From: Holosporales bacterium
GTDB lineage: Bacteria > Pseudomonadota > Alphaproteobacteria > Paracaedibacterales > CANFPP01
Direction: 5' to 3'
DNA: 64,000 nt
NCBI GenBank assembly: GCA_947449005.1
Contig: CANFPP010000006.1
Location: 1-64,000 of the forward strand
Part shown: positions 21,219 to 63,101 of the stretch, piece by piece
How the letters are laid out: each line of letters begins with the position of its first letter
How positions within the stretch are numbered: the first letter of the stretch is position 1
Program-made: the position numbers and the translations under genes
Notes under the pieces: model-generated
Databases searched by the model: none
Told to the model about the DNA's origin: nothing
The model's input: only the letters and a program-made list of their open reading frames with translations

Positions 21219-22568
21219 ATGACTGTCCCCGATAAAGCAACGATTACGCAAGCAATCCAGTGGCACGAAGGGATGATGCTCTCTCCGCATCATTTTCAGC
21301 AAATGGAATTGCGCTATCATCAAGTGCTCTCGAGTCATTTAGAGTTATTGGCTCCTGCTTATTGGGGAATAAAATTATTAAAACTTGACCCCATAGTTTT
21401 GCCAGATGGACTCGTTCGCATTTTAGAACTAGAGGCCGTTATGCCAGACGGACTGATTGTATTTTATTCAGCAAGTTCATCCGAAATCCCTCCCTTAGAA
21501 ATTGATCTCAGTGATATGAGGGCACAGATGCAAAGATCTGAAATCACAATTCAACTAGCAATTCCAGAATGGCGTGAAGATAGCTCACCAACAATTGGAG
21601 ATTTTCCAAGATTCTGGTCTGTTGAAGGAGAAGAAATAGGTGATGATAATGTCCCTGATAACATAATAAAAATCCCTCGCTTATTGCCTAGATTAACTCT
21701 CGTTGCGAGTGATAAAACGCCTGCACGCTGCTTGAGCTTTCCTCTCATAAAAGTAGCTTTTGTTGAGGAATCGTTTGCCTTAACAAATTTTGTTACCCCT
21801 TGCTTTAATATTGATAAATCTTCTTCTCTTGGTGAAATTTTTTGCTCAATCGTGCAATCAATCCGAGAAAAGGCATCTTTTTTGTCTGAAAAATGGCAAA
21901 ATCAAGTCGGAACCCCAATGTTAGCAGAGACAGCGGCACTTTTGCGTCCCCTCGTACAAGCCTTGCCAGGCCTCGAAACCTCCATGCATGGAGATGGTAT
22001 GCAGCCTCATTTATTGCATACAAAATTATGTGAATTGGCAGGATTGCTGGCGCCTCTCAGGCTGTCACAAATCCCCCCTGTCTTTCCTGTCTACAATCAC
22101 AACGACATCCGAGCAACCATGTCGCCTGTTCTCGATTTCATTAGACAATTATTAGCAAGCATTGAGCAAACTTATGCTGCCTTTCCTTTCCATCAAAAAG
22201 AACGTTTGTTCTATTTGCCCCTTCATAAAACATATCTAGAAAATAGAATTTTCATTGGATTGCGCGCAGCTTCAGGAATGACCGAATCTCAGCTGTCCGA
22301 CTGGATGGATGAAACAATTATTGTCAGTGATTTTGCCATTGACTCTGTCCGCGGGAAACGTATCACAGGCGCGCATCGCACTCTTCTACAAGACGAAGAA
22401 TTATCTGAGCTTATGCCAAGTCGCGGTGTTCTAATTTTTGAGATAGAAAATGACCCTGCTTTTATTCAAGCCGGGCAAAATCTCAATATCTTTAATCCTG
22501 TCGATCAACCAAATCGTAGGCCAACAGAAATTGCTCTCTATGTGAGAAAAGGAACGACAAATGAATAA
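21219..22568 (+). CDS. tssK: Type VI secretion baseplate protein TssK
   Basis: A 449-residue TssK (VasE/ImpJ). The N-terminal IQWHEGMMLSPHHFQQMELRYH is the family signature, and the LRILELEAVMPDGLIVFY segment follows the expected layout; the length matches the usual 440-450. A Shine-Dalgarno AGGA lies nine bases before the ATG. TssK is the baseplate adaptor that joins the phage-tail-like sheath to the TssJLM membrane complex. It starts the tssK-L-M-A run; tssL follows after 15 bp. Confidence 0.93.
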   Translation: MTVPDKATITQAIQWHEGMMLSPHHFQQMELRYHQVLSSHLELLAPAYWGIKLLKLDPIVLPDGLVRILELEAVMPDGLIVFYSASSSEIPPLEIDLSDMRAQMQRSEITIQLAIPEWREDSSPTIGDFPRFWSVEGEEIGDDNVPDNIIKIPRLLPRLTLVASDKTPARCLSFPLIKVAFVEESFALTNFVTPCFNIDKSSSLGEIFCSIVQSIREKASFLSEKWQNQVGTPMLAETAALLRPLVQALPGLETSMHGDGMQPHLLHTKLCELAGLLAPLRLSQIPPVFPVYNHNDIRATMSPVLDFIRQLLASIEQTYAAFPFHQKERLFYLPLHKTYLENRIFIGLRAASGMTESQLSDWMDETIIVSDFAIDSVRGKRITGAHRTLLQDEELSELMPSRGVLIFEIENDPAFIQAGQNLNIFNPVDQPNRRPTEIALYVRKGTTNE

Positions 22569-22583
22569 GGTTGTGAAATAAAA

Positions 22584-23366
22584 ATGCACGCACCTGAAGG
22601 TCAAACCCCACTGTTGCAAAACTTTCAAAGCTTTTACTATGAGCTTTTGAGACAGAAAGAGCGCGCCTTAAGAATGAGTGAAGTGGATAACATTTCTGTC
22701 GAAGATAAAACCCCGCCTCCAGAGGAAAAAAACATCGTCGAGACAATTCAAAAACGTTTGAGATTTCTTCTTGAAGAGCAAGCTTTAGAAATAACAAAAA
22801 GTGGATTTAGTATCAGCCAAAACAGAGATGCTCAATACATTATGGTAGCGCTTGCTGATGATATTTTTTTGACTCTAAACTGGCCTGGCGCAAAACAATG
22901 GGGGAAATCACTTTTGGAAGGACAGCTTTTTCAGACTCAGATATCAGGAGAGTTGTTTTACAAAAAACTAGAAATTCTGCTTGAAGCAAATGATCCTGTC
23001 AGAAGTGATTTAGCGTTAATTTATCTTATGGTTTTAAGTCTAGGATTTCGCGGAAAATACAGAGATGAAGATGACCACGATAAAATTAGCTGGTACCGTG
23101 AACAGCTGTTTAATTTGGTTAATCATCGCCCCTCTCATCTCTTTCGTCCAGGTCGAGCTGAATTAATTAATGAATGTTACCACAATACACTAACTGAATC
23201 TTCAGGAAGAGGATTGCCAGATTTAAGAACATGGACTGTCTGCATTGCCAGCATTATATCTCTGTATATTTTTGTAACTTACATTGTTTGGCATAAGCTT
23301 TCTTCTGAAATGCAAGAAGCGTTAAATTTTGTTTTAGAACACACACGTCATAGTCCGCTAATATGA
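22584..23366 (+). CDS. tssL: Type VI secretion membrane protein TssL (DotU family)
   Basis: A 260-residue TssL. The DotU domain contains IMVALADDIFLTLNWPGAKQWG and AYLIYLMVLSLGFRGKY-like segments (LIYLMVLSLGFRGKYRD), both family hallmarks. A single C-terminal membrane helix lies at about residues 213-238 (WTVCIASIISLYIFVTYIVW). No OmpA-like peptidoglycan-binding extension is present. It forms the inner-membrane core with TssM, and its last codon overlaps the tssM ATG (ATGA). Confidence 0.92.
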   Translation: MHAPEGQTPLLQNFQSFYYELLRQKERALRMSEVDNISVEDKTPPPEEKNIVETIQKRLRFLLEEQALEITKSGFSISQNRDAQYIMVALADDIFLTLNWPGAKQWGKSLLEGQLFQTQISGELFYKKLEILLEANDPVRSDLALIYLMVLSLGFRGKYRDEDDHDKISWYREQLFNLVNHRPSHLFRPGRAELINECYHNTLTESSGRGLPDLRTWTVCIASIISLYIFVTYIVWHKLSSEMQEALNFVLEHTRHSPLI

Positions 23367-26300
23367 AAACAATCACTCATTTTTTAGATTCGATCTTTCC
23401 AAAGATTCCCTTGATTCTCATAATCGTTATTCTTGTCGCTCTTTTAATAATGATTCTAACAATTGTACTCATCATTAAGGCTGTCAAAAAAGCTAAGAAA
23501 AAAGCTGCTGTTGCACAAGAAGGAACAGGAGAAACGGTCAAAAAAGAAAAGAAAGAACAAACTCATAAGCTCCCCCCTCTTATTGGGAAAGTTAGTGAAT
23601 TCTTAACTAAGAAAGGATTCTTTCGTGTCAGTGATATGAGTCTTTCTTTTTTGAAAGCTTTAGAGTTTTTACAACAATCTATTGGCACCACTAACTATAA
23701 ATATAGGCTTCCTTGGTTTTTGTTACTAGGAACAGAGCAATCTGGAAAAACGTCGATGCTCGAAGGGGCAGAATTGCACCTGCCTGTTGGTCAGCCAGAT
23801 TTTGGCATTGCCCACCCAAGGCCAGACTGTCAGTGGTGGTTTTTAAATCGTGGCGTGATTATTGATCCGCGCGGCAAGTTTTTAATCGAATCCAGAGGCA
23901 CCGGAAGCGATGATAAGAGCTGGCGTACTCTTTTAATATTGCTAGCCAGGTATCGCTCAGCAAGACCCTTAAATGGAATAATTCTAACAATTCCTGCTAA
24001 TGAAATCTATGGAAGGAATCAACTTCCGTTAGATGAAATTAATAGTCGTGCCCAGCACATGGCTCAAAAACTTTTATCAGCTCAAAACAGCTTAGGGCTT
24101 CGTCTGCCAGTTTATGTGATCATTACAAAATCTGATGTTATTTCAGGGTTTCAAAGTTTCTGTTCTGAGATTCCCGCGAGCAATCGTCATAACATGTTAG
24201 GGTGGTCATCAAATTACAGCCTAAGCACCGCTTATACCCCAAGCTGGATCGATGAAGCTTTTTCTTTCCTTCAAGACAAGATGTATAAATTAAGGTTAGA
24301 AATTTTTGCTGAAGGGCGTATCGACGAAGGGAAAGATGGTGTTTTTGTTTTCCCAGGAGAGTTGTTGTCCATTAAAGATAACCTTAGCGTATATCTTAAT
24401 CGCTTGTTTAAATCAGATGCGTATAACGAATCTCTTATCTTAAGAGGTATTTATTTTTGTGGCGATAGCGGCATGATGCCACTGACCGTTGTTGATGATG
24501 GCAATGGCGATTCTGAGATACCGGCAGATGCTGAAAATTTTGTAAAGGTTACCAAATTCGGAGTTTCACTTTTTGGTGAAGATGGCTCGTTATCAGAACC
24601 CCCGATCTCTAAAACCCGAAAAACATTTTTTCTAAATGACTTAATTTCAGAAAAAATTTTCAGAGAAGGAGGAATAGCTCACCCCATAAAACGACGGCTC
24701 ATGACAGCCAATCGAGGATTAAACATAGCGAAAATAGGCACTGCTATTTTTATGATTTTTGGGAGCTATGGGCTCTTTAATGCGTATGATAATTTTATAC
24801 GAAATCGAAATTATGTAGTTCCCGTTCTCGGTAAAATGACCGTTCTATTGCAGCAGATTCAAGGCTTAAAACTAAATGAAGCTCCAAGCTCTGCAGAGGC
24901 ATTTGATACGCACGCAAGGCAATTAATGGAAATGATGGAGCAATTACAGCAAACAAGCTTTTTCTCTCTCTTTGTTCCTGCTTCATGGTTTAGCTCTCTC
25001 CACCAAGATCTCCATCAGACTCTTAAGATTTCATATCAACATGTTATTCTTCGAACGATTTATATTGATTTGCTTATTAAAGCTAGAAACCTATTGCACA
25101 AACGGCCCGCAATTCAGGACAAATCTGTCTCGCTTGCCCAGCTCTTAAATCCAACAGCATCGGCAGAGTTTCTCGCTCTTAGAGACTACATTGAAGGCCT
25201 TGAAAAACTTAACGAAAAGATTATCAAGTTCAATTCCCTCAAGAATGCCAATGATGCTAACGACTTGAATGAGCTTATTGCCTTTACTTTCAATACGTCG
25301 CTTCCTGATAAATTTATTAACCAATATCAGAAATTTCGTAATTTTATCCAAAATACAATATTCCCCCCTATTGATTTAATGCCCTATCAGCAAATGGCGC
25401 GGGAGACTTTAAATGTTCTTCATCAAAATTTTCTAAATGCCATATTTTCGACAACTGATCAAAATGGACTTCCTGGACGATTGGCAAGCTTTCTGCATCA
25501 ACTGGGACAACAAACAAATCAACAGTTACCCAGCGTAGATTTTCTACGTCAAATTAGTATTGATTTAACGCAGGCAAAACCTATTCTGGGTGAAGCTGGT
25601 AAAACTTGGATGGATCAACCGTATTTTTCTCCAGGACCAGAGTACAACAAATTTCTTGATAAAATTGACGACTCAAAGCTTTTTGGTAAAGATGTGTCAC
25701 AATTTCTTGTGGACCAAACCTCTGTTGCGTTTGACAATTTAAAAGCGCAATTAAATTCCATTAATCAATTTTTGATCAATCAGCCATCGGCAATGCCGAT
25801 CATTTTACAAGATAAAGCAACACCTCCCTCACAAGGATTGCTCTTGTTGGAGAAAAGTTTAGCAACACTCTTTGCAGAACCTTTTATGGCCCAAGCTCAT
25901 GAACAATCGTTTACAACCAATATCACTCCTGGAAAGCTAATTTATTGGGATTCAAAACTTATCGAGTTAGCAGACGCAATGTCAGGTCGATACGATGAGT
26001 TTATGTCTAAACAGCTGTCTAGTTTTCCAGTAACATTACAAGAAAACATTCGGCTTATTGGCAGAGAAAGCTTGCGAGCGAATGTCGTTAGCTATTTAGC
26101 AAAAGCACAAAGCTTTACCAATATTCCAACTGATCCCTCAGATGCAGTGGCTGCAGAAGAAATACTAAGGTCAAAAATTTCTGACATTCGTGAGAGTAAT
26201 CAAAAATTCCTTAAGTTGCTGGCAATCCTAAACCAAGATACTATTGGATCGACTTATGTTCAGCTTAGATCTTTCTTAAGTGTGACTACATATTGGTTGC

Positions 26301-27736
26301 TCGCCCAGGTTGAAAAACTGGCGGTGACGTTTAACCCTTACGCTGTGCAAAATGGAAATTTTTTATGGTGGGCAGGAAAACCAGGCCTTGCATTTTCTGG
26401 TTTCTCTGCAAAAGACCTGGAGGATCTCAAATCTTACGTAACCTTGCAAAGAGACTATATAAGTCATCTAGCGATTAATTTTGCAAAACCTCTTGTTGCT
26501 CTTTTAGCGGCTCCAATCATGTCAGACGCAGTTGGAGATAAAACTCTTTTAAACCGTTGGCGCCGTATCGTTGAGCAAGTTGAATCGCATGAAAAGAAAA
26601 AGCCTGGAAACACTTTGATAGCGCTTGAGAATTTTATTTTATCTGATATGAACAAAATTGACTTAAGCAACTGCTTTCACCAAATCCCTTTGTCAGAGAC
26701 TAAAACGGAATCTGGAGATTTTTTCTCAGATACGATGAGAAACATAAAAAAGAAAATCCTTGCCCAAGCAGAAGTTCTAAAACGCCAACAAAGTATTAAA
26801 AGTTATAAAACTCTGGCAACTTATTTTAATGCAAACTTAAAGAACAAATTTCCTTTTATAGAGGGTACGGTGAATGGAAATGAAACAGAAGTTGATGCAG
26901 AGCATGTCTTAGAATTTTTCCAAATGTACAATGAGCTTGGAGGCAACCGCAAAGAGGTTTTGCAGCAAGTTTATCAACTTGGAAAAATGTCTCAAGACGT
27001 AACAAAGTTTCTTGATAAAATAGATGAAATTAAAGAGTTTCTAAAAAATTATATTAGTGAAAAAAATGATGTTCCCACATTTGATTTTAACATTGACTTT
27101 AGAGTCAATCGCGAAAAAGAAGAAGCAGCCAATCTCATTGTGGAATGGTACATCAAAACCAATGACATTACAAAAATAGATAACCACGCCAAGACACGCA
27201 ATGGGCAGTGGCGCTATGGAGATAAGATTGAAATAGGATTGCGTTGGCCAGAAGGAATTGCAGCCAAACCCTCAAAGGATTTAAATCAACCATTTATGAA
27301 TGTTGATGGACAGCAGGTAACTTTTAAATATACAGGACGCTGGGCTTTGTTATGGTTATTGAAAATGCAAAAAGCCCCCAATAGTGAGTATGTTTTAAAG
27401 GAAGATAATGACTCCTATATATTGAAATACACTGTACCAATGGGTGCAGTCGGCAGGTCCGTTGGCTATGTTAAGGTTACGCTTGTTGCTCCAGTTAAAG
27501 GAAAGACGACCGCAAAACCAATGAAGGTCCCCGCCAACTTTCCGAATGAAGCCCCCAACATGCCTCAAGATGTTTTAAATGTAGCAGAACAATCTGTTTT
27601 AACAGATGGTATTGTTGAAGCTGTTGAGGACGAACCAAATACCCAAACATCATCTTCCGAAAGAAAATCTGAAACTTCGACGTCATCAATAACAAAAGAA
27701 GATGGTAAAAAACCATCTGAGACTCCGGCGGTATAA
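23363..27736 (+). CDS. tssM: Type VI secretion membrane protein TssM (IcmF family)
   Basis: A 1457-residue TssM, longer than the usual 1100-1250. Membrane helices are at about residues 16-38 and 445-465. A Walker A motif GTEQSGKT lies at residues 123-130, as in nucleotide-binding TssM proteins. The large periplasmic part is followed by the C-terminal IcmF region (RWALLWLLKMQKA). The last 45 residues are a low-complexity Ser/Thr/Glu/Lys tail not seen in most relatives. TssM spans the periplasm and contacts the lipoprotein TssJ, which is not found in this window. Confidence 0.92.
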   Translation: MKTITHFLDSIFPKIPLILIIVILVALLIMILTIVLIIKAVKKAKKKAAVAQEGTGETVKKEKKEQTHKLPPLIGKVSEFLTKKGFFRVSDMSLSFLKALEFLQQSIGTTNYKYRLPWFLLLGTEQSGKTSMLEGAELHLPVGQPDFGIAHPRPDCQWWFLNRGVIIDPRGKFLIESRGTGSDDKSWRTLLILLARYRSARPLNGIILTIPANEIYGRNQLPLDEINSRAQHMAQKLLSAQNSLGLRLPVYVIITKSDVISGFQSFCSEIPASNRHNMLGWSSNYSLSTAYTPSWIDEAFSFLQDKMYKLRLEIFAEGRIDEGKDGVFVFPGELLSIKDNLSVYLNRLFKSDAYNESLILRGIYFCGDSGMMPLTVVDDGNGDSEIPADAENFVKVTKFGVSLFGEDGSLSEPPISKTRKTFFLNDLISEKIFREGGIAHPIKRRLMTANRGLNIAKIGTAIFMIFGSYGLFNAYDNFIRNRNYVVPVLGKMTVLLQQIQGLKLNEAPSSAEAFDTHARQLMEMMEQLQQTSFFSLFVPASWFSSLHQDLHQTLKISYQHVILRTIYIDLLIKARNLLHKRPAIQDKSVSLAQLLNPTASAEFLALRDYIEGLEKLNEKIIKFNSLKNANDANDLNELIAFTFNTSLPDKFINQYQKFRNFIQNTIFPPIDLMPYQQMARETLNVLHQNFLNAIFSTTDQNGLPGRLASFLHQLGQQTNQQLPSVDFLRQISIDLTQAKPILGEAGKTWMDQPYFSPGPEYNKFLDKIDDSKLFGKDVSQFLVDQTSVAFDNLKAQLNSINQFLINQPSAMPIILQDKATPPSQGLLLLEKSLATLFAEPFMAQAHEQSFTTNITPGKLIYWDSKLIELADAMSGRYDEFMSKQLSSFPVTLQENIRLIGRESLRANVVSYLAKAQSFTNIPTDPSDAVAAEEILRSKISDIRESNQKFLKLLAILNQDTIGSTYVQLRSFLSVTTYWLLAQVEKLAVTFNPYAVQNGNFLWWAGKPGLAFSGFSAKDLEDLKSYVTLQRDYISHLAINFAKPLVALLAAPIMSDAVGDKTLLNRWRRIVEQVESHEKKKPGNTLIALENFILSDMNKIDLSNCFHQIPLSETKTESGDFFSDTMRNIKKKILAQAEVLKRQQSIKSYKTLATYFNANLKNKFPFIEGTVNGNETEVDAEHVLEFFQMYNELGGNRKEVLQQVYQLGKMSQDVTKFLDKIDEIKEFLKNYISEKNDVPTFDFNIDFRVNREKEEAANLIVEWYIKTNDITKIDNHAKTRNGQWRYGDKIEIGLRWPEGIAAKPSKDLNQPFMNVDGQQVTFKYTGRWALLWLLKMQKAPNSEYVLKEDNDSYILKYTVPMGAVGRSVGYVKVTLVAPVKGKTTAKPMKVPANFPNEAPNMPQDVLNVAEQSVLTDGIVEAVEDEPNTQTSSSERKSETSTSSITKEDGKKPSETPAV

Positions 27737-27739
27737 GAA

Positions 27740-28873
27740 ATGACTCAAACTCTAGACATACGCGTTGAAATTAATGATGAAGCCTTGCGTTCTCCTCTGG
27801 AAAATGGGGCAGGTCCATATTTACGCTATGAACCAATTTATGATCAGATTCGCGAAGCACGCCGAGAAGATGATGCAAGCTTATCTATGGGGATTTGGGA
27901 AACAGAAATTAAAAAAGCAGATTGGCTTTTAGTTGAAAAGCTATGTTCTGATGTTTTACAAAATCAATCTAAAGACATACAAGTCTCTGTATGGCTTACA
28001 GAAGCATGGCTAAATTTAGATGGTTTTTCAGGGGGCAAGCGTGGTTTTGAACTCATGAAAGATCTTTGTGAAATTTTTTGGCAAGAATTTCATCCCCAGC
28101 TTGACGGAGAAGACATTGAGCATCGCTTGAGGATATTTGAATGGGCCAACGAAACGTTTGCACACCGCCTAATGTTTATTCCAATCACAGCGCCTGTCGG
28201 TCAAAGTAATTTACCTTCTTTTAGCCTTGCAGATTGGAATTATGCTTTAAATCTTGATACGGTTTCAAAACGTTCTACAGACGCAAATTCTATGATTTCT
28301 GCTGCAGAAATAAAAGGAAATCCGACTCTTGGTCGTTTTCGCAAAGGCTTGCAACAAACGTCTGCCGATTCTTTAAACACCACTCTTCAGTTAACTCACG
28401 CCTTAACACAGACCGTAAAATCTCTGTCAGAAGTATTAATATATCGATGTGGTGCTCAAACTCCCTCTTTTCAAAAAATTTTAGATCATCTAGTAGATAT
28501 CTCCAGAATTTGCAAAACAGCACAGATGCAAAAAACAGCTGAACTCCCACTGACCGAAGAAAATGTCTCTATTCCTGTTATGAAAGATTTGGATGAAGAG
28601 AGCCTAAACAATACTCCCAAACTAGAGAATAATGAATTCAAGGTTACAGGGCGCCAATCTGCTTACCAATCCCTAAAAGAGATTGCCGATTTTCTTGAGG
28701 GAACTGATTTGCACAGTCCAACTCCGCATATTTTACACATGGTTGTTAGCTGGGAGAACAAAAGCTTGCCTGAAATTCTTATCAGCCTTTCTGAGGGGCA
28801 AGCAGATCATCAACTTCTTATGCAGCTTCTTGGTTTTCCAGTAATAAATTCAGGTGCAAAGCTTGAAAAATAA
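27740..28873 (+). CDS. tssA: Type VI secretion protein TssA (ImpA N-terminal family)
   Basis: A 377-residue TssA. The ImpA domain is at the N-terminus: GPYLRYEPIYDQIREARREDD, then WLLVEKLCSDVL and VWLTEAWLNLDGFSG. The C-terminal segment SAYQSLKEIADFLEGTDLHSPTPH also matches short TssA forms. TssA caps and primes assembly of the tube and sheath. It begins three bases after the tssM stop and ends the cluster; hcp, vgrG, clpV, tssB/C/E/F/G are absent from the window. Confidence 0.9.
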   Translation: MTQTLDIRVEINDEALRSPLENGAGPYLRYEPIYDQIREARREDDASLSMGIWETEIKKADWLLVEKLCSDVLQNQSKDIQVSVWLTEAWLNLDGFSGGKRGFELMKDLCEIFWQEFHPQLDGEDIEHRLRIFEWANETFAHRLMFIPITAPVGQSNLPSFSLADWNYALNLDTVSKRSTDANSMISAAEIKGNPTLGRFRKGLQQTSADSLNTTLQLTHALTQTVKSLSEVLIYRCGAQTPSFQKILDHLVDISRICKTAQMQKTAELPLTEENVSIPVMKDLDEESLNNTPKLENNEFKVTGRQSAYQSLKEIADFLEGTDLHSPTPHILHMVVSWENKSLPEILISLSEGQADHQLLMQLLGFPVINSGAKLEK

Positions 28874-34560: not shown

Positions 34561-36471
34561 AGGAACAAACCGACGCTCAGCCTGCATCATAAAGACGATA
34601 AAAGTAAATGCCCAAGCTAAGTAATTGTATCTACCGTCTGGAACATAGAACATCAAAACGACTTGCATACTGAGCGCCGTAAAGGCAAGAACTCTTGATT
34701 TATCAGAAACCTTTGATGAAAATAAACTGTATAGAACAGATGCTAAGGGCAATAAGCGAAAGAAATATTTCCAATCATTCCACGCTTTCAAATGCTTAAC
34801 TACCGACTCAATACTCTGACTAGAAAAACTACCCCTCATAAGCTCAAATGTTGCCTTTAAATAAGTTAAAGGTGGCGTGAGTAGATTCTCTGGGATAGAG
34901 CTGGCCGAGGTTAATAGAACCAGCTTGTGACCAAAATACCAGTTGTGTAAAGGTAGCAGTAAAACGGGCAACAACCCTGTAAACAAAAGAAATGTGGTGG
35001 TGTATCCTTCTTTTTTTAACATCCAGTAACTTATAAAAAGACAAAAAACGGCCGCAGGAATTATAAGATTGGGCCTTGCGATAATCGACAAGGAAAACAG
35101 TAAATTCATTCCAATGATTTGTCTTAGTCTAATCTGATCCCTATCACCCAAACCAATTGTTGCTGCCATTAAAAACAAGCCATATCCAAGTGTTTCTGCG
35201 TGTCCCTTATTAATCTCATTAATATACAAATGATTCGAAAGGCCAAAGCAGGCAAAAACCGGAAGAAGCATAAAAATAAAAAATAGAATTTGTGATGTTT
35301 TTTCACAAAGAATTGCCCGAAAAAACCGCAAGAAAATCAAAGGAACAAACACACCAAATAAAACATAGCCATAGTTCGTATCGCCGAAAATGACTTTCTC
35401 GATAGCCTTGAAATACCGCAAACCCGGCATGAAGTAAAAAATACTTTCTTGACCGCGTAGCACCTCTAAATACTGCCCATCCAAAAACAACTGAATGATT
35501 ATACGAGCAAATCCTTCATGGGTTAATCCGTCTCCCCCACCGGGGTATGGAGAGTAACCAGTGAGTAGATTTTGTCTCATTAAATAGATTGTAAGGAAGG
35601 TGAAAAAAACTGATGCAATAGGGAAGGTTAGTTTTTTTAAATCGTCAATTTTTAACAAAAGCCCTAGCAAGCCAACAACGGAAATAGTCGTAAAAATCAA
35701 GCCCAAAATAGACGATAACTTCAACAAAGTGGACGGATCTAGTTTCATTATCAAGGGGTTGTTTGGATCTATTCCAACTCCAAAAACTTTGTGTGTATCT
35801 AGGGGCTCGCACACAAAATCATTGTGAATTTTTGGTGTAAAGTTATTGTCGGATGTTTGCCAAAGCGTTTTTCCTTTCCAACAAAGGCTTGCACCCAATG
35901 TTTTTCCAGGAAACTCATACATAACAAAGTAAGGGATTGTTTCACGCGAAACATCACTTTTAAACTTATAATAATTATACTGAACATCGTTAACCGTCCC
36001 GATGCGCAAAGAAGATAAGCCATTAAAGTTTATTGATTTTACAACACGTGAATATTTTGGATTCTGTAGAATTCCATCAGAAGAAAAAGAGAACGTTTTC
36101 GAAGGAGGGGGGAAAGCCAACCAGCACCCAAACTCCTTTGAATCACATTTTTTCTGAACAGGATAATGGGTATCGAAATCTGTTTTTAGATAAGAGAAAA
36201 CTTGCGGCGGAAGCTCTTTCTCAAGAACCTGATTATCACCTGTAACAATAAAAACATTGTGCCCCTCTTGGATCTCCATTGAGGGTAGAAAGAATCTCGC
36301 TATCCCTAAAATTAGAACAAGGCTAAGAGATTTTTTCCAATGTTGTAAGCTTACCTCAAAAGATAAAATAAAAGTAATAGCCAACGAAACAAGGATAAGA
36401 TTTTCAAGACTGTTAACCGGAAGACCAACAATCCCGAACAAGAGGATAACAAGAGAAAGCTTTTGGATCAT
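34543..36471 (-). CDS. Large polytopic membrane protein, possible GT-C-type glycosyltransferase
   Basis: A 642-residue protein with about twelve predicted membrane helices, two at the N-terminus, a soluble loop of about 200 residues and the rest in the C-terminal half. Segments such as YPGGGDGLTHEGFARIIIQ and YFMPGLRYFKAIEKVIFGD resemble membrane glycosyltransferases with an acidic first loop. Family placement by eye is weak. The coding sequence contains a parS-like 16-mer at 35938-35953. It could use the product of the nearby sugar operon, but no link is visible. Confidence 0.55.
   Translation of the reverse strand: MIQKLSLVILLFGIVGLPVNSLENLILVSLAITFILSFEVSLQHWKKSLSLVLILGIARFFLPSMEIQEGHNVFIVTGDNQVLEKELPPQVFSYLKTDFDTHYPVQKKCDSKEFGCWLAFPPPSKTFSFSSDGILQNPKYSRVVKSINFNGLSSLRIGTVNDVQYNYYKFKSDVSRETIPYFVMYEFPGKTLGASLCWKGKTLWQTSDNNFTPKIHNDFVCEPLDTHKVFGVGIDPNNPLIMKLDPSTLLKLSSILGLIFTTISVVGLLGLLLKIDDLKKLTFPIASVFFTFLTIYLMRQNLLTGYSPYPGGGDGLTHEGFARIIIQLFLDGQYLEVLRGQESIFYFMPGLRYFKAIEKVIFGDTNYGYVLFGVFVPLIFLRFFRAILCEKTSQILFFIFMLLPVFACFGLSNHLYINEINKGHAETLGYGLFLMAATIGLGDRDQIRLRQIIGMNLLFSLSIIARPNLIIPAAVFCLFISYWMLKKEGYTTTFLLFTGLLPVLLLPLHNWYFGHKLVLLTSASSIPENLLTPPLTYLKATFELMRGSFSSQSIESVVKHLKAWNDWKYFFRLLPLASVLYSLFSSKVSDKSRVLAFTALSMQVVLMFYVPDGRYNYLAWAFTFIVFMMQAERRFVPLTTTK
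35938..35953. promoter_or_regulatory. Near-consensus parS site (one mismatch)
   Basis: TGTTTCACGCGAAACA differs from the consensus TGTTTCACGTGAAACA by a single central base and encodes VSRET inside the membrane-protein gene. It lies 4.4 kb from the proposed origin. ParB proteins often tolerate such changes, but binding here is unverified. Confidence 0.5.
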
Positions 36472-38313: not shown

Positions 38314-39263
38314 TACTGAGCTATAGCCGATCTCACAAGCTTTGCCAAACCCTCAATAAATTGTTTGTGGCACCCCACCGCCGGAACCCGCCCAAAGTAA
38401 GAAACACCAAGATCTTCTGCCATCTGACGATACTCCATATCCAACTCCACCAAGGTCTCTGAGTGCTCCGAAACAAAAGACAAAGGAACCACAACAACAG
38501 GAACCCCATCGCGGGCAGCCACCTTTATTTCATCGCCAATGGTTGGTGTTAGCCACTTGGCGGGCCCGACACGACTCTGATAACAAATGCGGTAATCACA
38601 ATTTTTAAATGGAAAATTTTCTAAAATTCCAGCTGCAGTTTTTTCCACCTGCGACTGGTAGGGATCACCAGCATCAACTATCTTTTGAGGCAATCCATGT
38701 GCTGAAAACAAAACCCGAGGAGCCCCAAACTTTTGAGCCTCAACGTAAAAAGGTTCCATCAACCCCGCATATGCTTTTAAAAAGTCACCCTCAGTCGGAT
38801 AATCGTGTACATCAACAGTTTTAACAGTTAACCCCTGAAGAGTGGCCTGATTGCGCCACTCTGAAAACGAAGACCCGGTCGTTGTTGTGGAGAATTGAGG
38901 GTAAAGCGGCAACAAAACAATTTTATCCGGCGAATAATCAATCACATCACGAACAACATCAGCGATAAAGGGATGCCAATATCGCATCGCAACAAAAACT
39001 TTTTTGTCGCCCCCAAGCTCATTTTCCAAGGCCATCGCCTGAGCCAAGGTGTTCTCGTATATAGGAGATTTTCCGCCAATTTTACGATAAATCTCGATTG
39101 CTTTTTTCTCTCGAAAACCAGAAATCAGTTTTGCCAAACACCACCTTGGAACTTTGGGCCAGGAAATAATCGCCGGATCATTAAAAAGATTAAATAAAAA
39201 AGGCTTCACCGCACCGGGTGAGTCAGGCCCCCCGAGATTAAACAAGACGACCGCTGTTTTCAT
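38313..39263 (-). CDS. hemH: Ferrochelatase
   Basis: About 316 residues. MKTAVVLFNLGGPDS is the family N-terminus, LFSAHGLPQKIVDAGDPY holds the catalytic His and YRICYQSRVGPAKWLTP is the conserved core. VSEHSETLVELDMEY contains the second active-site His and Glu. A GTG at 39272 would add three residues, but the ATG at 39263 overlaps the hemE stop (ATGA). It inserts Fe2+ into protoporphyrin IX as the last haem step. Confidence 0.95.
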   Translation of the reverse strand: MKTAVVLFNLGGPDSPGAVKPFLFNLFNDPAIISWPKVPRWCLAKLISGFREKKAIEIYRKIGGKSPIYENTLAQAMALENELGGDKKVFVAMRYWHPFIADVVRDVIDYSPDKIVLLPLYPQFSTTTTGSSFSEWRNQATLQGLTVKTVDVHDYPTEGDFLKAYAGLMEPFYVEAQKFGAPRVLFSAHGLPQKIVDAGDPYQSQVEKTAAGILENFPFKNCDYRICYQSRVGPAKWLTPTIGDEIKVAARDGVPVVVVPLSFVSEHSETLVELDMEYRQMAEDLGVSYFGRVPAVGCHKQFIEGLAKLVRSAIAQ

Positions 39264-40291
39264 TTGTGGCACCTCACTCGCTCAACAAGATCATAAACAT
39301 GCTCAAGAGGTGTTTGTGGTAGGATACCGTGGCCCAAATTAAAAACAAACACACCCCCCGAAAGCTCAACCAAGATTTCATCAATCGCTTGATGCATCTT
39401 CGCCCCCCCCTCAATCAACAAAAGTGGATCAAGATTTCCCTGTACCGGGGCCAATGTTTGCAGGTTCTCTGCTGCCCACTTAGGAGAAACGTGCTGATCC
39501 ACCCCAAAACAAACGCCAGAAAAATTCTTTATTATTTCGGGATAAATCTCTGAAACACCCTTGCCATAGTAGATAATTGGAATGTTCGGAAATTCGAGCC
39601 TTATGCGAGAAATGATGTTTCTTGCTGGCTGTATAACGTATTTCCCCCTAAGTTGAACCGGAACAGCGCTCGCCCAAGAATCAAAAATCTGAACAACATC
39701 CACGCCCGCATTAATTTGACCAACAAGCGAGGTCACAACAGCGTCCTCTAAAAGGCTCATCAAGGGATCAAGATCAGCTGCTTTGGCAAGATCAATAACC
39801 TTGCTAAAGTCTTTCGATTTTCCAAGCTCAACCATATAGGTTGCGATTGTCCAGGGAGAGCCCGCAAAGCCAATAAGTGTTGTTTTATTTGAAAGCTGGC
39901 TCTTAATTTGTTTGATTGCCTGAAATACAGGTTGAGATTTTTCTAACAGATCCACCCTATAGGCATCTTTGATAAAACCCAAAAGATCTATCGGGGATAG
40001 TTTGGGTCCTTCGCCCTTTTCAAAACTTACATCTTGTCCCAATAGGTGGGGAATGAGTAAAATATCACTAAACAGAATTGCTGCATCAAAACCAAATCTT
40101 TGAATAGGCTGAAGGGTTGCCTCTGTCACCCAATTGGGTGTTAAGCATAAGTCTATAAACGATGATGAGGTTTTTCGGATCTTTCGGTATTCAGGTAAGT
40201 ACCTGCCAGCTTGACGCATTAGCCAAATAGGAGGGGGGCATTCTTGAGTGCCCATTAAAGCTCTGTAAACTGGTTTCATGCTTTGTATCAT
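39260..40291 (-). CDS. hemE: Uroporphyrinogen decarboxylase
   Basis: A 343-residue HemE. PPIWLMRQAGRYLPEYR is the signature active-site loop, GFAGSPWTIATYMVE and IIYYGKGV follow in normal order, and GHGILPQTPLEH closes the family pattern. The first ATG is at 40291; a second at 40279 (MKPVYRAL) is an equally plausible start. It decarboxylates uroporphyrinogen III to coproporphyrinogen III. Being the first gene left of the DnaA-box region, it matches the hemE-origin linkage known in Caulobacter and relatives. Confidence 0.95.
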   Translation of the reverse strand: MIQSMKPVYRALMGTQECPPPIWLMRQAGRYLPEYRKIRKTSSSFIDLCLTPNWVTEATLQPIQRFGFDAAILFSDILLIPHLLGQDVSFEKGEGPKLSPIDLLGFIKDAYRVDLLEKSQPVFQAIKQIKSQLSNKTTLIGFAGSPWTIATYMVELGKSKDFSKVIDLAKAADLDPLMSLLEDAVVTSLVGQINAGVDVVQIFDSWASAVPVQLRGKYVIQPARNIISRIRLEFPNIPIIYYGKGVSEIYPEIIKNFSGVCFGVDQHVSPKWAAENLQTLAPVQGNLDPLLLIEGGAKMHQAIDEILVELSGGVFVFNLGHGILPQTPLEHVYDLVERVRCHK

Positions 40292-40515
40292 AATAATCTT
40301 ATTTATATGTATTAAGGTAGTATTGATAGTAGATACTTGTGAAAAATGGGGATAAAAAAGACTACAAACTTATTCACAAGTTGGGTGCCTTATTTTTCTT
40401 TTCTTGTGGAAAATCAGGATTTCTGTCTTTTTTTCAAATGATTATCTTGTTGAACACTCTGTTGATAACCTGTGGAGTTGTGGGGTTGTTAACAGGTGTT
40501 CACAACTTTTTTTTC

Positions 40516-40524
40516 TGTGGATAA
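40516..40524 (-). promoter_or_regulatory. Perfect DnaA box
   Basis: TGTGGATAA is the exact reverse complement of the consensus TTATCCACA. It lies 4 bp from the CtrA-type box, the closest pairing in the region. Confidence 0.85.
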
Positions 40525-40528
40525 ATAG

Positions 40529-40543
40529 TTAAGATTTGGTTAA
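40529..40543. promoter_or_regulatory. CtrA-type box TTAA-N7-TTAA in the origin
   Basis: TTAAGATTTGGTTAA is an exact TTAA-N7-TTAA match, the binding motif of the response regulator CtrA that silences the Caulobacter origin. It starts 5 bp after a perfect DnaA box, so both proteins could compete here. The motif is short and AT-rich, so chance is possible, but the position is telling. Confidence 0.65.
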
Positions 40544-40634
40544 TTTTCCCACAGTTTTTGGGTGAAGATCTTTCTCCCTCTTTTTTGAGATAGGCTTAAG
40601 TGTGAATATCCACAGAGATATCCACACTATATTA

Positions 40635-42011
40635 TCATGTGGCTAAATATACCTCTATTCTTCCTTTGAGGTTTTGAAGGTCTGGTAGTTGAGTTCGTTC
40701 CATTGACGATTCCGCACCCCTTTTTTTACTTACAAGCTCTTTTAGTTGTTGTTCTGGTGTGCCCATGCCAAGTGATTTTGATACGACAGCAGAAGCTTCT
40801 CTTCCTTCCACAAGGGCTGTTGAGGTGGTGGTTTTTAATTCATCCAAAATAGCTTTTGCGTGCGTTCCATATGCAATTTCTTTAGCGCTTACTGCGTAAC
40901 TTCTGATAAATTCTATCAGCATATTGATGTACTTTACGCCATCTTTAAATGATTGAAAATCAGGCGCTTCAGGGCTTATCCAGCGACTATCTATGAAATT
41001 CGCAATAGCGATATCCCCTATAAACATTTGAGACAGTGCAATAATTTGTTGGCTGTGATCAGAGGGTGGGAGAGTCTTTAGGTTCTCAACCATACTCAGA
41101 AAATCACCAATCATTAGAAATTTTGATTTTAACTTGTGACCCATTATGTTGTTTAGGGTTTGTTCAACTTGGAAAAATATTGCGTGAATGTCTGTGATAT
41201 CAACCCTCTCTAGACTTACTTTTGCGTCTTGGCTACTGTCATTCGGTAAAACAAGATCAGTCAGAGTTAGTACTTTTGGTCCCCCTAGTTCGTGGGCAAC
41301 AGGAATTCTTTCTCTAATATATGTTTCGTGATGTTCAACCGTTTGATTTAAAGCACCCAAAATAATAGGTATGTCTGTGCTTAGGGAGTCTCTTAATCCA
41401 ATAGCTTTTCCTCTTAATTTTTTAATCAGAGGGGGGAAAAGTTTTACAACATCAACTATAAATGAGTTGGGAGCGTCTAATTTTTTGATGGCTCTTGAAA
41501 GCATACTCAGATCATCTTCTATTTTTCCTGTTGCGAAATCATTTAATCCATCACGTAAGTGAATAAGGTCTTTATAGGCCCACAGAACGTTTGTGTCACA
41601 ACGTTGTTCATGCACAGATCTGATGTCTTGAAATCCTATGCTTCCAAACTCCAATGCATCTGCAGCTAATGGTATTGCCATGCTTTTATTGTAAGTCTCA
41701 GAGTTGTTACCTAAGTCTGGTGTTGCGACAGCAATTTCAAGTCCTTTGATTCCGCTCGTCATGAGTCGAGAAAAATCATAACCACGCCCCTCTGGGTTTC
41801 TAATTTTTCCAACATAATTAGAGTCTAGTGTCTCTGATGGTATGACGGCTTTTCCAGAGGGCTTGGCACTAGGAATTGTTACTGGAAATACTGTGGCCGC
41901 GCTTTCTTCTTCTTTGTACACCTCAATAGCTGACGAAGTAGCTGTGTGCGCTACTTGTGTTAGGCAAGGTGTAGACAGTAGGATTGTGAATAATTTTGCA
42001 TATTTTTTCAT
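40635..42011 (-). CDS. Exported protein of unknown function
   Basis: I do not recognise this 458-residue protein. It begins with a signal peptide (MKKYAKLFTILLSTPCLTQV then AHTATSS). The mature part has no membrane helix, is largely helical in character and contains a long segment LVLPNDSSQDAKVSLERVD within a charged middle region. It follows the 508-residue unknown gene by 7 bp and ends at the edge of the origin region, so the pair is probably one operon. It could be a secreted or periplasmic protein specific to this lineage. Confidence 0.6.
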   Translation of the reverse strand: MKKYAKLFTILLSTPCLTQVAHTATSSAIEVYKEEESAATVFPVTIPSAKPSGKAVIPSETLDSNYVGKIRNPEGRGYDFSRLMTSGIKGLEIAVATPDLGNNSETYNKSMAIPLAADALEFGSIGFQDIRSVHEQRCDTNVLWAYKDLIHLRDGLNDFATGKIEDDLSMLSRAIKKLDAPNSFIVDVVKLFPPLIKKLRGKAIGLRDSLSTDIPIILGALNQTVEHHETYIRERIPVAHELGGPKVLTLTDLVLPNDSSQDAKVSLERVDITDIHAIFFQVEQTLNNIMGHKLKSKFLMIGDFLSMVENLKTLPPSDHSQQIIALSQMFIGDIAIANFIDSRWISPEAPDFQSFKDGVKYINMLIEFIRSYAVSAKEIAYGTHAKAILDELKTTTSTALVEGREASAVVSKSLGMGTPEQQLKELVSKKRGAESSMERTQLPDLQNLKGRIEVYLAT

Positions 42012-42018
42012 TTTCTAA

Positions 42019-43545
42019 TTACCTTTGAAAGCCACTTAAGTTTCTATTTAATAGCGCACTAATCTCGTTTAATATTGTTTCAGGAACAGCCATATCTTCA
42101 TCAAGTTCAGTTATGTGATTGTATAGTTCCCCAAGGGTAAATGGGCTGCTTCGGTTTATTGCAAAAATCTTTAGCTCATTCATTTGAGATGGTGTTGGAC
42201 ACCAGTAATAAAAACGCTTCTCTTGACCATTATGTTGAACGCGAGCAACAAGAGAATATGTCTCTTCTCCATCCTCATTTTCAATTTTTCTTTTGGGTGA
42301 TATGATTAGCTGCCCATCGTTTGGTCTTTTTTCAGTTGGTTTAACTTGTGAAACTGAAGAGCGTAAAGCGCTTCCTAGCTGCTTAAAATCAGTAAGTTCG
42401 GTTACGGAGGTTGTGTCATTAGATGGCTGTTCAATATTCCACACAACTCTTAAATCTTCTGTTGTTTTGTCCAAATATTGAACATGAATATTTGTTTCTC
42501 CAGAGCTTCCAGCAGCGGTTGCCGACATATATTGAGGGCGAAGAACGGGATCTCTGTTATCTTCTGGTTGCATAATCACAAAATAATGATTTGGAGAAAT
42601 TTGTGCTGTAATGGAAAGCATATCTTTGGGTTTTTTCATGGGAACTTTGTGAGACCCTAAAACGACTATACCTTTCGGATACCTGGCCTCGTCTAGGCTA
42701 GCATGTAGGCTGTGTCCTTGAGTGCCGGTTGTTCCAAAAATGTGTTGGGGTTTTTCTGATCCTTCGAATCTCAAGCGATCAATAACAATATCTCTTAGGT
42801 TTTCTGGAAAAACAGGAATGCTCGCGCTACTTTGAGCCACAGTTTCAGTTGGTAATAATTGATCCGCATAACCATTAATTTTCACACGAACGTCTGCTCC
42901 AGCAGCTCCTAGATACCAAGCTGAATCGTTTATTAAGCTACGATCATGGCCTGCTAATATTAGCAAAGCAGATATTTGAAGGTGTTGTTTAATTTTATTA
43001 TCTGTTGTTTTTCTGTAAACAGCTTCAAGATCTTTAATTCTTGCTGTAAGTGCAGCGTACTCCATTGAACGGCCACCATTTAACAGCTCACGTGCTATGA
43101 TTATTGTTTCTTCTGCTGTAATTGGACGATTTTGAAAACCTAAATCTCCCCTGATAATACCAAGCATTCCCGTCATTTCTGCATCAGCGATGTTTTTATA
43201 ATTGGGATTTCCGTCGTTCAAGATTCCACGACTTGAAGTCCCCATGGTTTCGAAAATATTGAAGGCGCTTATGTTCTCATCTCTTGATGTGTAGATTTTG
43301 TGTTGGCTGTTCCAGCTTTTATAAGACGAGCATGGATCAGAAAAGAAACTCATGGGCTGGTTTGGATTTTGAGCAAATGGCCTCGTTACGCGGGTCGCAA
43401 AGCTATCACTACCTTGGCTTGCTGTTGGTCTTTTGAGCATTGAATTGAAATCAGACGTTATACCATCTTCAGAATACCTATGACTATAAGCAGGATCTAA
43501 AAGAAAAAATATTAAAGCCAAAAAACAATATAGTACTTTGGTCAT
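42019..43545 (-). CDS. Exported protein of unknown function
   Basis: I do not recognise this 508-residue protein. The N-terminus is a signal peptide (MTKVLYCFLALIFFLLDPAYS then HRYS). The C-terminal region EETYSLVARVQHNGQEKRFYY has a beta-rich look, and a helical stretch follows (MNELKIFAINRS). No catalytic motif is evident. The gene starts behind an AGGAGA Shine-Dalgarno and is followed after 7 bp by the other exported unknown. Both may be virulence or envelope factors, but this is a guess. Confidence 0.6.
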   Translation of the reverse strand: MTKVLYCFLALIFFLLDPAYSHRYSEDGITSDFNSMLKRPTASQGSDSFATRVTRPFAQNPNQPMSFFSDPCSSYKSWNSQHKIYTSRDENISAFNIFETMGTSSRGILNDGNPNYKNIADAEMTGMLGIIRGDLGFQNRPITAEETIIIARELLNGGRSMEYAALTARIKDLEAVYRKTTDNKIKQHLQISALLILAGHDRSLINDSAWYLGAAGADVRVKINGYADQLLPTETVAQSSASIPVFPENLRDIVIDRLRFEGSEKPQHIFGTTGTQGHSLHASLDEARYPKGIVVLGSHKVPMKKPKDMLSITAQISPNHYFVIMQPEDNRDPVLRPQYMSATAAGSSGETNIHVQYLDKTTEDLRVVWNIEQPSNDTTSVTELTDFKQLGSALRSSVSQVKPTEKRPNDGQLIISPKRKIENEDGEETYSLVARVQHNGQEKRFYYWCPTPSQMNELKIFAINRSSPFTLGELYNHITELDEDMAVPETILNEISALLNRNLSGFQR

Positions 43546-48986: not shown

Positions 48987-49146
48987 AGAGTGATGCTGCA
49001 GGGCACGTGAAGGTTTGAATCCCTTGGCCCAATTTACATCCCCGGGAGCTGTCCCTTCTAAAGCCTTGGTTTTAGAAAATGGTTACCCACCTGGTCACTT
49101 GGCCACGGAGGATCGTAAACCAAAACGACCCAGGCGGCATCACTCT
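48987..49146 (+). ncRNA. ssrS: Probable 6S RNA
   Basis: A 160-nt region folds into one long rod. AGAGTGATGC and GCATCACTCT form a perfect 10-bp closing stem, 49012-49016 pairs with 49117-49121, 49019-49022 with 49110-49113, and TTCTAAA/TTTAGAA (49056-49062/49071-49077) forms the apical hairpin; a large open central part remains with a small hairpin on its 3' side. This, and the 3' end GGCGGCATC, match the shape and end of 6S RNA, which sequesters RNA polymerase. A perfect TATAAT (48976-48981) ends six bases before the first base, and TTTT follows the last pair. No covariance search was possible. Confidence 0.65.
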
Positions 49147-60651: not shown

Positions 60652-61477
60652 TTTTTAGATTTAGCGCTTGTTGATATATTAGTTTCTTGGAAAGATTGTA
60701 GCTTTCCGCGACTGAAGCGCTTGCATCACGAACAGACTGATGAGCAAGAGCTTTTATAAGCAATTGATTGATTTCAGTTTCTGATAATTCATTGCTTCTC
60801 AATGGAGGGCTTAATACAATAACCACCTCACCTTTGGGAAGGCCATTTTCTTTGTAGTTGTTGATAAGTTCTTCAATGCTTCCTTGTCTGGTTTCTTCGT
60901 ATATTTTTGTAATTTCTCGAACTACGCTGACTGTACGATTTCTGTAGGTGTCTATCATTTTTTCTAGAGTTTTTAGTAAGCGCCTAGCTGATTCAAAAAA
61001 TATTAGCGTGGCGGGGCTTGCTTCAAAATCTTTGATTTTTTTTGAATCAAAAAAACCTGCGAATAGAAATTGATCACTTGGTTGACCAGAAAGTACAAGT
61101 GCAGAAAGTACAGAAGATGCGCCTGGGGCAGACGTTACGTAGATGCCTTGTGCGCGGCATTCTCGAACAAGCTTGTAGCCTGGATCGGAGATTAGTGGAG
61201 TTCCAGCATCACTAACCAGACTTATAACCCTTCCGTTTTTTAGCTCATTTATAATTTTAGGACGAACTTCATCAGCATTATGATTATGATAAGACATCAG
61301 TTTTTTGTTGATTCCGTATGCCTGTAAAAGCTTGTTGCTTACTCTTGTGTCCTCACAAAGAATTAGGTCACAATCTTTCAGAATTCTGAGGGCGCGTAGT
61401 GTGATGTCTTCTAAATTTCCAATAGGTGTCGAAACAATATACAGGCCCGGCTTTAAAGATGCTGTTGTTGCTATCAT
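60641..61477 (-). CDS. rsmI: 16S rRNA 2'-O-ribose C1402 methyltransferase
   Basis: A 278-residue RsmI. GLYIVSTPIGNLEDITLRAL, CEDTRVSNKLL, SYHNHNADEV and VSDAGTPLISDPGYKLV are its conserved N-terminal motifs, and PKGEVVIVLSPP follows in the C-terminal half. It methylates C1402 of 16S rRNA together with RsmH. Its start overlaps the end of parB by 4 bp. Confidence 0.94.
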   Translation of the reverse strand: MIATTASLKPGLYIVSTPIGNLEDITLRALRILKDCDLILCEDTRVSNKLLQAYGINKKLMSYHNHNADEVRPKIINELKNGRVISLVSDAGTPLISDPGYKLVRECRAQGIYVTSAPGASSVLSALVLSGQPSDQFLFAGFFDSKKIKDFEASPATLIFFESARRLLKTLEKMIDTYRNRTVSVVREITKIYEETRQGSIEELINNYKENGLPKGEVVIVLSPPLRSNELSETEINQLLIKALAHQSVRDASASVAESYNLSKKLIYQQALNLKNAN

Positions 61478-62331
61478 TCATCATCTCTAAGGCTTTTAAA
61501 TTTATTTATTAAATCATCCATTTGCTCGTAGTTGTTAAAGTAGAGACTTATAACACCTCCGCTTGGTTTAATGTCAACTTTTGCTTTTACGGATAATAAA
61601 TCGCTAATTTGCTCTGCTAACTGTATAGCGTCTTCATTGTATTTATCGCTTACACCATTCTTTTTTTGTTTGCTTTGTTTTACTTTTTGCTCTGTATCGC
61701 GAACTGATAAGTTATTTTTAAGAATGTCATCAATTACATCATCCAGGTTTTCGTGATTGATCAGTGCCCTGGCGTGCCCAGCTGATAATCTTCCATCATG
61801 AATTAGCTTTTTAACGTGAACAGGTAAAGTATTAAGTCTTAACATGTTGGCTACGTAGCTTCGACTTTTGCTAAGAGCCTGAGCAATCTGTTCTTGTGTC
61901 TTGCCGTGATCTGTTATAAGCCTTTGAAATGATTCAGCTTCTTCTACTGGGTTTAAATCATCTCTTTGGAGATTTTCAATTAAGCCAATTTCAAGAGCTT
62001 CGCTGTCAGTGCAGCTCATAATAACAGCTGGAACGGAATCTAATCCAACTTCCTTAGCTGCTCTCCATCTTCTTTCTCCTGCGATGATTTCGTATTCTTC
62101 GTGGATAGAGTCAAGTTTTCTAAGAATAAGAGGTTGAATAACACCCTTTTCACGAACTGATTCAATTAGAGAGCTCATCTTCTCAGGGCTAAATACTTGC
62201 CTTGGTTGCAATCTTCCTGGCTTAATGATGCTAATATCAACTTCTGTTGTTTGTTGTTTTTGTGTTTCTAGATCTGTATCTCCTAGCAGCGCAGAAAGAC
62301 CACGGCCTAACGTTTTATTTTGATTAAACAT
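61474..62331 (-). CDS. parB: Chromosome partitioning protein ParB
   Basis: About 285 residues. The start KTLGRGLSALLGD is typical of alphaproteobacterial ParB. The ParB/Noc core has the CTPase motif GERRWRAA, and the helix-turn-helix follows in KTQEQIAQALSKSRSYVANML. A C-terminal dimer domain ends LYFNNYEQMDDLI. A longer frame opens at 62397 within parA; the ATG at 62331, with the family N-terminus, is chosen. It binds the parS sites inside rsmG. Confidence 0.94.
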   Translation of the reverse strand: MFNQNKTLGRGLSALLGDTDLETQKQQTTEVDISIIKPGRLQPRQVFSPEKMSSLIESVREKGVIQPLILRKLDSIHEEYEIIAGERRWRAAKEVGLDSVPAVIMSCTDSEALEIGLIENLQRDDLNPVEEAESFQRLITDHGKTQEQIAQALSKSRSYVANMLRLNTLPVHVKKLIHDGRLSAGHARALINHENLDDVIDDILKNNLSVRDTEQKVKQSKQKKNGVSDKYNEDAIQLAEQISDLLSVKAKVDIKPSGGVISLYFNNYEQMDDLINKFKSLRDDE

Positions 62332-62339
62332 TTTAAATC

Positions 62340-63101
62340 CTATCGTTTTGTTAAAATTTCTTTTGCGAGATTCATATAAGCTTGTGCGCCTAAACACCCT
62401 ACGTCATAGACCAATACTGGTTTTCCGTGTGAAGGTGCTTCTGAAACCTTTATATTTCGCGGAATAACTGTTTGAAATACTTTGTCTTTCAAGTGGTGTC
62501 TTACGTCGTTTTCTACTTGTGAGCTGAGTGAACTTCTTCTGTCATACATTGTGAGTACTATTCCGAATAATTCAAGTGACGGATTGAAATTCTTTTTAAT
62601 TTTTTGAATAGAGTTAAGTAAATAACTCAATCCTTCTAATGCATAGTATTCACATTGGAGTGGGACCAAAACAGAGTCAGCTGCGACCAATGCGTTAAGT
62701 GTTAAAAGTCCCATAGATGGCGGACAATCAATGATAATATAGTCAAACATATCTTTGTATGGCTCAATGATAGTTTTAAAAATACGTTCTCTGTTTTCTT
62801 GGTTTACGAGTTCTATTTCAGCGCCAATCAATTCTATGGACGATGAAATAACTGAGAGTCCTGGGATTATACTTTTTTTAAGAACTTCGCTAAGTGTGTT
62901 TTGCCGTATAAGCAACTCATAGCTTCCAATCCCTTTGTTCTTTTTGCTGATTCCAACGCCAGTTGACGCATTCGCCTGAGGATCCATATCTATTAAAAGG
63001 ACCTTTTTATCAACGGCAGCTAATGCTGTTGATACATTTACTGCTGTCGTAGTTTTCCCAACTCCGCCTTTTTGATTGGCAACAACAATAACTTCACCCA
63101 T
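62340..63101 (-). CDS. parA: Chromosome partitioning ATPase ParA (Soj)
   Basis: A 253-residue ParA. The deviant Walker A is KGGVGKTTT near residue 11, followed by LLIDMDPQANASTG (Walker A' region) and IIIDCPPSMGLLTLNAL (Walker B). Its lack of an N-terminal DNA-binding domain fits chromosomal ParA. It overlaps rsmG by 8 bp and precedes parB by 8 bp; together they segregate the origin. Confidence 0.95.
   Translation of the reverse strand: MGEVIVVANQKGGVGKTTTAVNVSTALAAVDKKVLLIDMDPQANASTGVGISKKNKGIGSYELLIRQNTLSEVLKKSIIPGLSVISSSIELIGAEIELVNQENRERIFKTIIEPYKDMFDYIIIDCPPSMGLLTLNALVAADSVLVPLQCEYYALEGLSYLLNSIQKIKKNFNPSLELFGIVLTMYDRRSSLSSQVENDVRHHLKDKVFQTVIPRNIKVSEAPSHGKPVLVYDVGCLGAQAYMNLAKEILTKR

Follow-up and report, generated by a model that had tools for sequence, protein, structure and literature searches.

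The 343-bp gene-free gap beside hemE, at positions 40292 to 40634 of the analysed window (the whole stretch of DNA, 64,000 nucleotides long), is very likely to be the single chromosomal oriC of a hemE-type alphaproteobacterium. The assignment is made because the density of DnaA boxes, the change in GC skew at the contig minimum, the nearby parABS genes and sites, the synteny of the flanks and the hemE-side box clusters in relatives agree as independent lines of evidence, and the original prediction of a probable oriC beside hemE is supported by all of them. The likely origin is thereby fixed for a poorly known alphaproteobacterial lineage, and a hemE-type origin is added in which the second boundary gene has been replaced.

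The gap extends from the start of hemE (40291, minus strand) to the stop of the neighbouring gene (40635, minus strand). It had been predicted to be AT-rich and free of genes, and both properties hold: the AT content is 68% vs about 60% in the 64-kb window, and no gene lies within 40292-40634. From the elements listed for hemE-type origins (PMC1914354), the boundary gene hemE, a gap length within 200-1000 bp, the density of DnaA sites, a higher AT content and a shift in GC skew were all found here. The IHF consensus WATCAN5WTR has no match inside the gap, which is not disqualifying because an alphaproteobacterial oriC need not possess every listed element (PMC1914354); IHF/HU-type genes are present in the genome. 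An Rfam search of 40292-40634 returned zero matches. The gap, its left boundary gene and the DnaA boxes are as follows.

40292 to 40634, unstranded: putative oriC, the intergenic gap between hemE and an uncharacterised secreted-protein gene, with 7 DnaA boxes (at most one mismatch) and the skew minimum at 39833
39260 to 40291, minus strand: hemE, left boundary gene (PF01208, E 9.5e-89)
40338 to 40346, minus strand: weak DnaA box TTTTTCACA, 2 mismatches, which abuts the next box and points at the trinucleotide repeat; its TTCACA half is conserved in relatives
40347 to 40355, minus strand: DnaA box TTATCCCCA, sequence match
40370 to 40378, plus strand: DnaA box TTATTCACA, sequence match
40405 to 40413, minus strand: DnaA box TTTTCCACA, sequence match
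40460 to 40468, minus strand: DnaA box TTATCAACA, sequence match
40516 to 40524, minus strand: perfect DnaA box TTATCCACA, sequence match
40606 to 40614, plus strand: DnaA box ATATCCACA, tandem copy 1, sequence match
40618 to 40626, plus strand: DnaA box ATATCCACA, tandem copy 2, offset by 12 bp, sequence match
40638 to 40646, minus strand: DnaA box TTAGCCACA, the eighth box, just within the neighbouring gene

The predicted cluster of DnaA boxes is therefore real, but the six boxes originally counted were too few: seven with at most one mismatch lie in the gap, with one more at 40638-40646. The perfect box and the tandem pair named in the prediction are both present. Dinucleotide shuffles of the gap gave a mean of 0.17 boxes and a maximum of 3, with 0 of 2000 attaining seven, and the richest other 343-bp stretch of the window holds two. 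None of the remaining 23 perfect DnaA boxes of the genome stands in a comparable cluster. The DnaA protein encoded by this genome carries the domain IV box-reading signature GGRDHTTV.

GC skew was computed on one contig of 74 (74,323 bp), from an assembly that is about 91% complete for a genome of 1.9 Mb. On this contig, the cumulative G-C minimum lies 0.5 kb off the gap, G-C averages -20.9 per kb on the left and +16.8 on the right, and 0 of 20,000 permutations of 1-kb blocks matched the observed change; the skew check proposed with the prediction, run at the scale of this contig, placed the minimum near the gap. The segregation genes are on the same contig, as are the two perfect parS sites, about 23 kb from the gap, which are the only two in the assembly.

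61474 to 63714, minus strand: parB, parA and gidB, 21-23 kb from the gap
63253 to 63268, unstranded: perfect parS TGTTTCACGTGAAACA, sequence match
63661 to 63676, unstranded: perfect parS TGTTTCACGTGAAACA, sequence match
35938 to 35953, plus strand: one-mismatch parS, 4.3 kb to the left of the gap

The gene order, with rho and parts of the order assigned by comparison with a complete chromosome from this class (L133), is rho-hemJ-hemH-hemE, the gap, and then dnaQ-secB-tim44-mltA-smr, which is the order at the hemE gap of that chromosome. The usual alphaproteobacterial order had been predicted on both flanks; the left flank is standard, but the right opens with two unknown genes (40635-43545), beyond which the dnaQ-smr series begins. 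These two genes occupy the usual place of COG1806 and its neighbours, and COG1806 (PF03618) was not found in the roughly 91% complete assembly. The proteins of 40635-42011 and 42019-43545 are long, have signal-like N termini, are encoded facing the gap and gave zero Pfam or NCBIfam matches. The flanking genes had also been predicted to point mainly away: on the left 25 of 34 do so, in agreement with this, whereas on the right the figure is 11 of 22, which does not bear the claim out. Elsewhere in the window, type VI secretion genes (VasE/ImpJ, DotU, ImpA_N) were observed at 21219-28873, within 20 kb of the origin, and a 6S RNA at 48990-49144 (53.9 bits, above the gathering score).

Also present in the assembly is a contig of 8.5 kb that encodes plasmid-type ParA and ParB together with a Rep of the DnaA_N type; this would be compatible with the gap being the origin of an integrated plasmid. 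This explanation is extremely unlikely, as chromosomal housekeeping genes flank the gap in the ancestral alphaproteobacterial order and the gap encodes no Rep protein. It is also very improbable that the gap serves to titrate or reactivate DnaA, in the manner of datA or DARS, with oriC located elsewhere. Such sites are box clusters too, but the skew minimum, the synteny and parABS coincide at the gap, and the other small box group of the genome (contig C19; four boxes in two repeat copies) has a 26-bp core in common with two further contigs, of which one has plasmid-type genes.

The 26-bp element, GTTATCCACAGATAATGGGGATAACT, comprises inverted DnaA-like boxes and is identical at four intergenic places: L115:3540-3566 and 3925-3951 (contig C19 of G000), L238/L242 (C51) and L240/L241 (C74). 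C51 encodes ParA and ParB of plasmid type and a DnaA_N-type Rep. On both C51 and C74 the element comes after the end of similar ORFs, that on C74 with a Cro/C1-type HTH, and it is possibly an operator or plasmid control site.

Among known origins, Caulobacter crescentus Cori and Rickettsia prowazekii oriC are of the hemE/COG1806 type (PMC1914354, citing Brassinga et al. 2002). The present locus is like them in its hemE boundary, its AT-rich gap (343 bp vs 383-404 bp), its DnaA-box cluster, a tentative CtrA-site match and a ctrA gene in the genome, and unlike them in having two unknown genes where COG1806 would stand and a gap without an IHF-site match; Caulobacter, in addition, has five CtrA-site matches vs one here. 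The origins of Wolbachia, Ehrlichia and Anaplasma are of the hemE/COG1253 type, in which the second boundary gene has been exchanged (PMC1914354). The present locus likewise retains hemE with the other boundary gene replaced, although the replacing gene is unrelated and more DnaA boxes are present than the three of Wolbachia. Overall, apart from the replaced boundary on its right, the locus is a standard hemE-type alphaproteobacterial oriC, notable mainly for its putative opening module and for a possible shift in what DnaA reads.

The CtrA-site match of the gap is the following.

40529 to 40543, unstranded: perfect CtrA-site match TTAA-N7-TTAA (tentative), 4 nt away from the perfect box

The chance of one perfect CtrA site in a gap of the same composition is 0.05, and a perfect site is found in 3 of 18 loci, the gap's own counted, so that it is not conserved. 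The genome encodes a CtrA ortholog with receiver and DNA-binding domains, which is 67% identical to the Caulobacter CtrA sequence used as query. CtrA restraint of the origin is plausible, with the single site being suggestive only. Upstream of ctrA itself (C1:35076), region L223 (G000:C1:34500-35100) holds a perfect DnaA box at 34777-34785 and a perfect TTAA-N7-TTAA at 34964-34978, and further CtrA-site matches stand at 34022 and 34230 of C1; DnaA input and CtrA autoregulation are possible there.

The hemE end of the gap contains the putative opening module, in which the abutting boxes at 40338-40355 are followed by two further elements.

40318 to 40332, plus strand: trinucleotide repeat resembling DnaA-trios, 3'-5' GAT GAT AGT TAT GAT, with position and periodicity conserved in relatives
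40281 to 40331, unstranded: AT-rich, least stable stretch, which overlaps the hemE start codon and is the likely first opening site

Read on the minus strand from the boxes towards hemE, the module is TTATCCCCA-TTTTTCACA-AGTAT-CTA-CTA-TCA-ATA-CTA, followed by AT-rich DNA, and the spacers between the box pair and the repeat are 5 and 14 nt. The least stable 40-mers of the 39-42 kb region start at 40281-40293, and 40292-40331 is within the top 0.1% of the window for low stability. A module pattern derived from related origins, this window among them (ATCCMC-N4-TTCACA-N2-14-CNACNA), matches the 1.9-Mb genome at a single place, inside the gap, and the reversed control has no match.

DnaA-box clusters on the hemE side, at the same position and distance, are present in families f4, f5, f6, f7 and f13. 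In families f2, f3 and f8 of the same taxonomic order (e.g. L117, L118, L119, L126, L127 and L129), hemE is found without an adjacent box cluster, and therefore hemE alone is no proof of oriC; the f8 stretches that were read showed no hemH. Two f3 genomes (L142 and L143) carry the module within a cluster of 7-8 boxes, and in L142 it stands between aroE and a Bax1-I gene with the hemE linkage lost. The f3 module away from hemE therefore indicates that the module, and not hemE, marks the origin, and the conserved hemE-side module provides a way to locate moved origins, as applied here to f3. The same search for a relocated origin in f8 and f2 gave no module with a box cluster. A further f3 match, in G002 (L141), lies inside an ORF and lacks a box cluster, and another match in the class (L140) is without boxes; both were attributed to chance. 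A class-wide search for TTATCCMC-N4-TTCACA gave matches in 20 of the 385 genomes, in most cases with no trio-like repeat behind the match, and the exact spelling of the box pair is therefore not general in the class.

These relatives also bear on the reading of the boxes as a DnaA-regulated hemE promoter with no origin function, which the location of the cluster immediately upstream of hemE and the overlap of the AT-rich stretch with the hemE start would favour. Such a promoter is very unlikely here: 7-8 boxes, a skew change and a nearby parABS would not be expected of it, the f3 module stands beside aroE without hemE, and the moved hemE of f8 is without boxes.

For the oriC reading, we infer from the sequence layout that DnaA would bind the box cluster of the gap and load at the abutting boxes 40338-40355, which face hemE, before extending along the plus strand of the repeat at 40318-40332. 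The AT-rich stretch 40281-40331 would then melt at the hemE start, the helicase would be loaded and forks would depart both ways, with parABS 21-23 kb off segregating the origin region. Loading at 40338-40355 and opening at the hemE start are proposed because the layout is that of the basal unwinding system (BUS), in which two boxes and a short spacer are followed by trinucleotides bound as single strand and by AT-rich DNA (PMC8287927).

The repeat itself appears to differ from the known trios in its middle base. When five triplets were picked in the relatives on the basis of the outer letters alone, the middle base on the box-to-hemE strand was T in 54, A in 28 and C in 27; when the register was set from the first two triplets and the next two were read, the first position was C in 24/28, the third was A in 27/28 and the middle was T in 13, A in 11 and C in 4, all of these counts coming from loci related to each other. 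On the strand that DnaA would bind, 3'-GNT-5' fits the repeat better than 3'-GAT-5' does. In B. subtilis, the middle base of the trio is recognised, via its amine, by Asn187, such that A or C works and G and T impair opening (PMC10721633). Alignment to the B. subtilis structure 8btg places Tyr205 of the present DnaA at Asn187 and Lys220 at Arg202, and the equivalents of both residues are invariant in 30 DnaA proteins from this genome and its relatives. A tie between this tyrosine and the variable middle base is inferred. That alphaproteobacterial origins open via a shifted trio code, 3'-GNT-5' with a free middle base, paired with Tyr at the Asn187 position, is a tentative proposal that we regard as possible rather than probable. 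The existence of trios without a middle adenine was suspected previously (PMC8287927), and a search of literature outside subscription journals for the DnaA-trio with Alphaproteobacteria, Caulobacter or Asn187 found nothing on this group. If functional, 3'-GNT-5' would address the open point of PMC8287927 and PMC10721633 concerning non-adenine trios and their reading by DnaA.

Compared with the BUS of Bacillus subtilis, the module of the gap shares two co-oriented boxes, a short spacer, a trinucleotide repeat and AT-rich DNA (PMC8287927, PMC10721633). The published BUS search rule (PMC8287927) calls for a box with at most 2 mismatches that is 0-16 bp from the trios, a second box, and at least 3 uninterrupted trios with a middle adenine. 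The boxes at 40338-40346 and 40347-40355 conform to the first part of this rule, whereas the repeat falls narrowly short of the last, with a middle adenine in 4/5 triplets and a longest unbroken run of two. The module is also unlike the BUS in that the middle base of its triplets varies among relatives of the window, and the DnaA is unlike that of B. subtilis in having Tyr for Asn187. Although the module is not classed as a BUS member, it resembles one and, by analogy, probably works like one.
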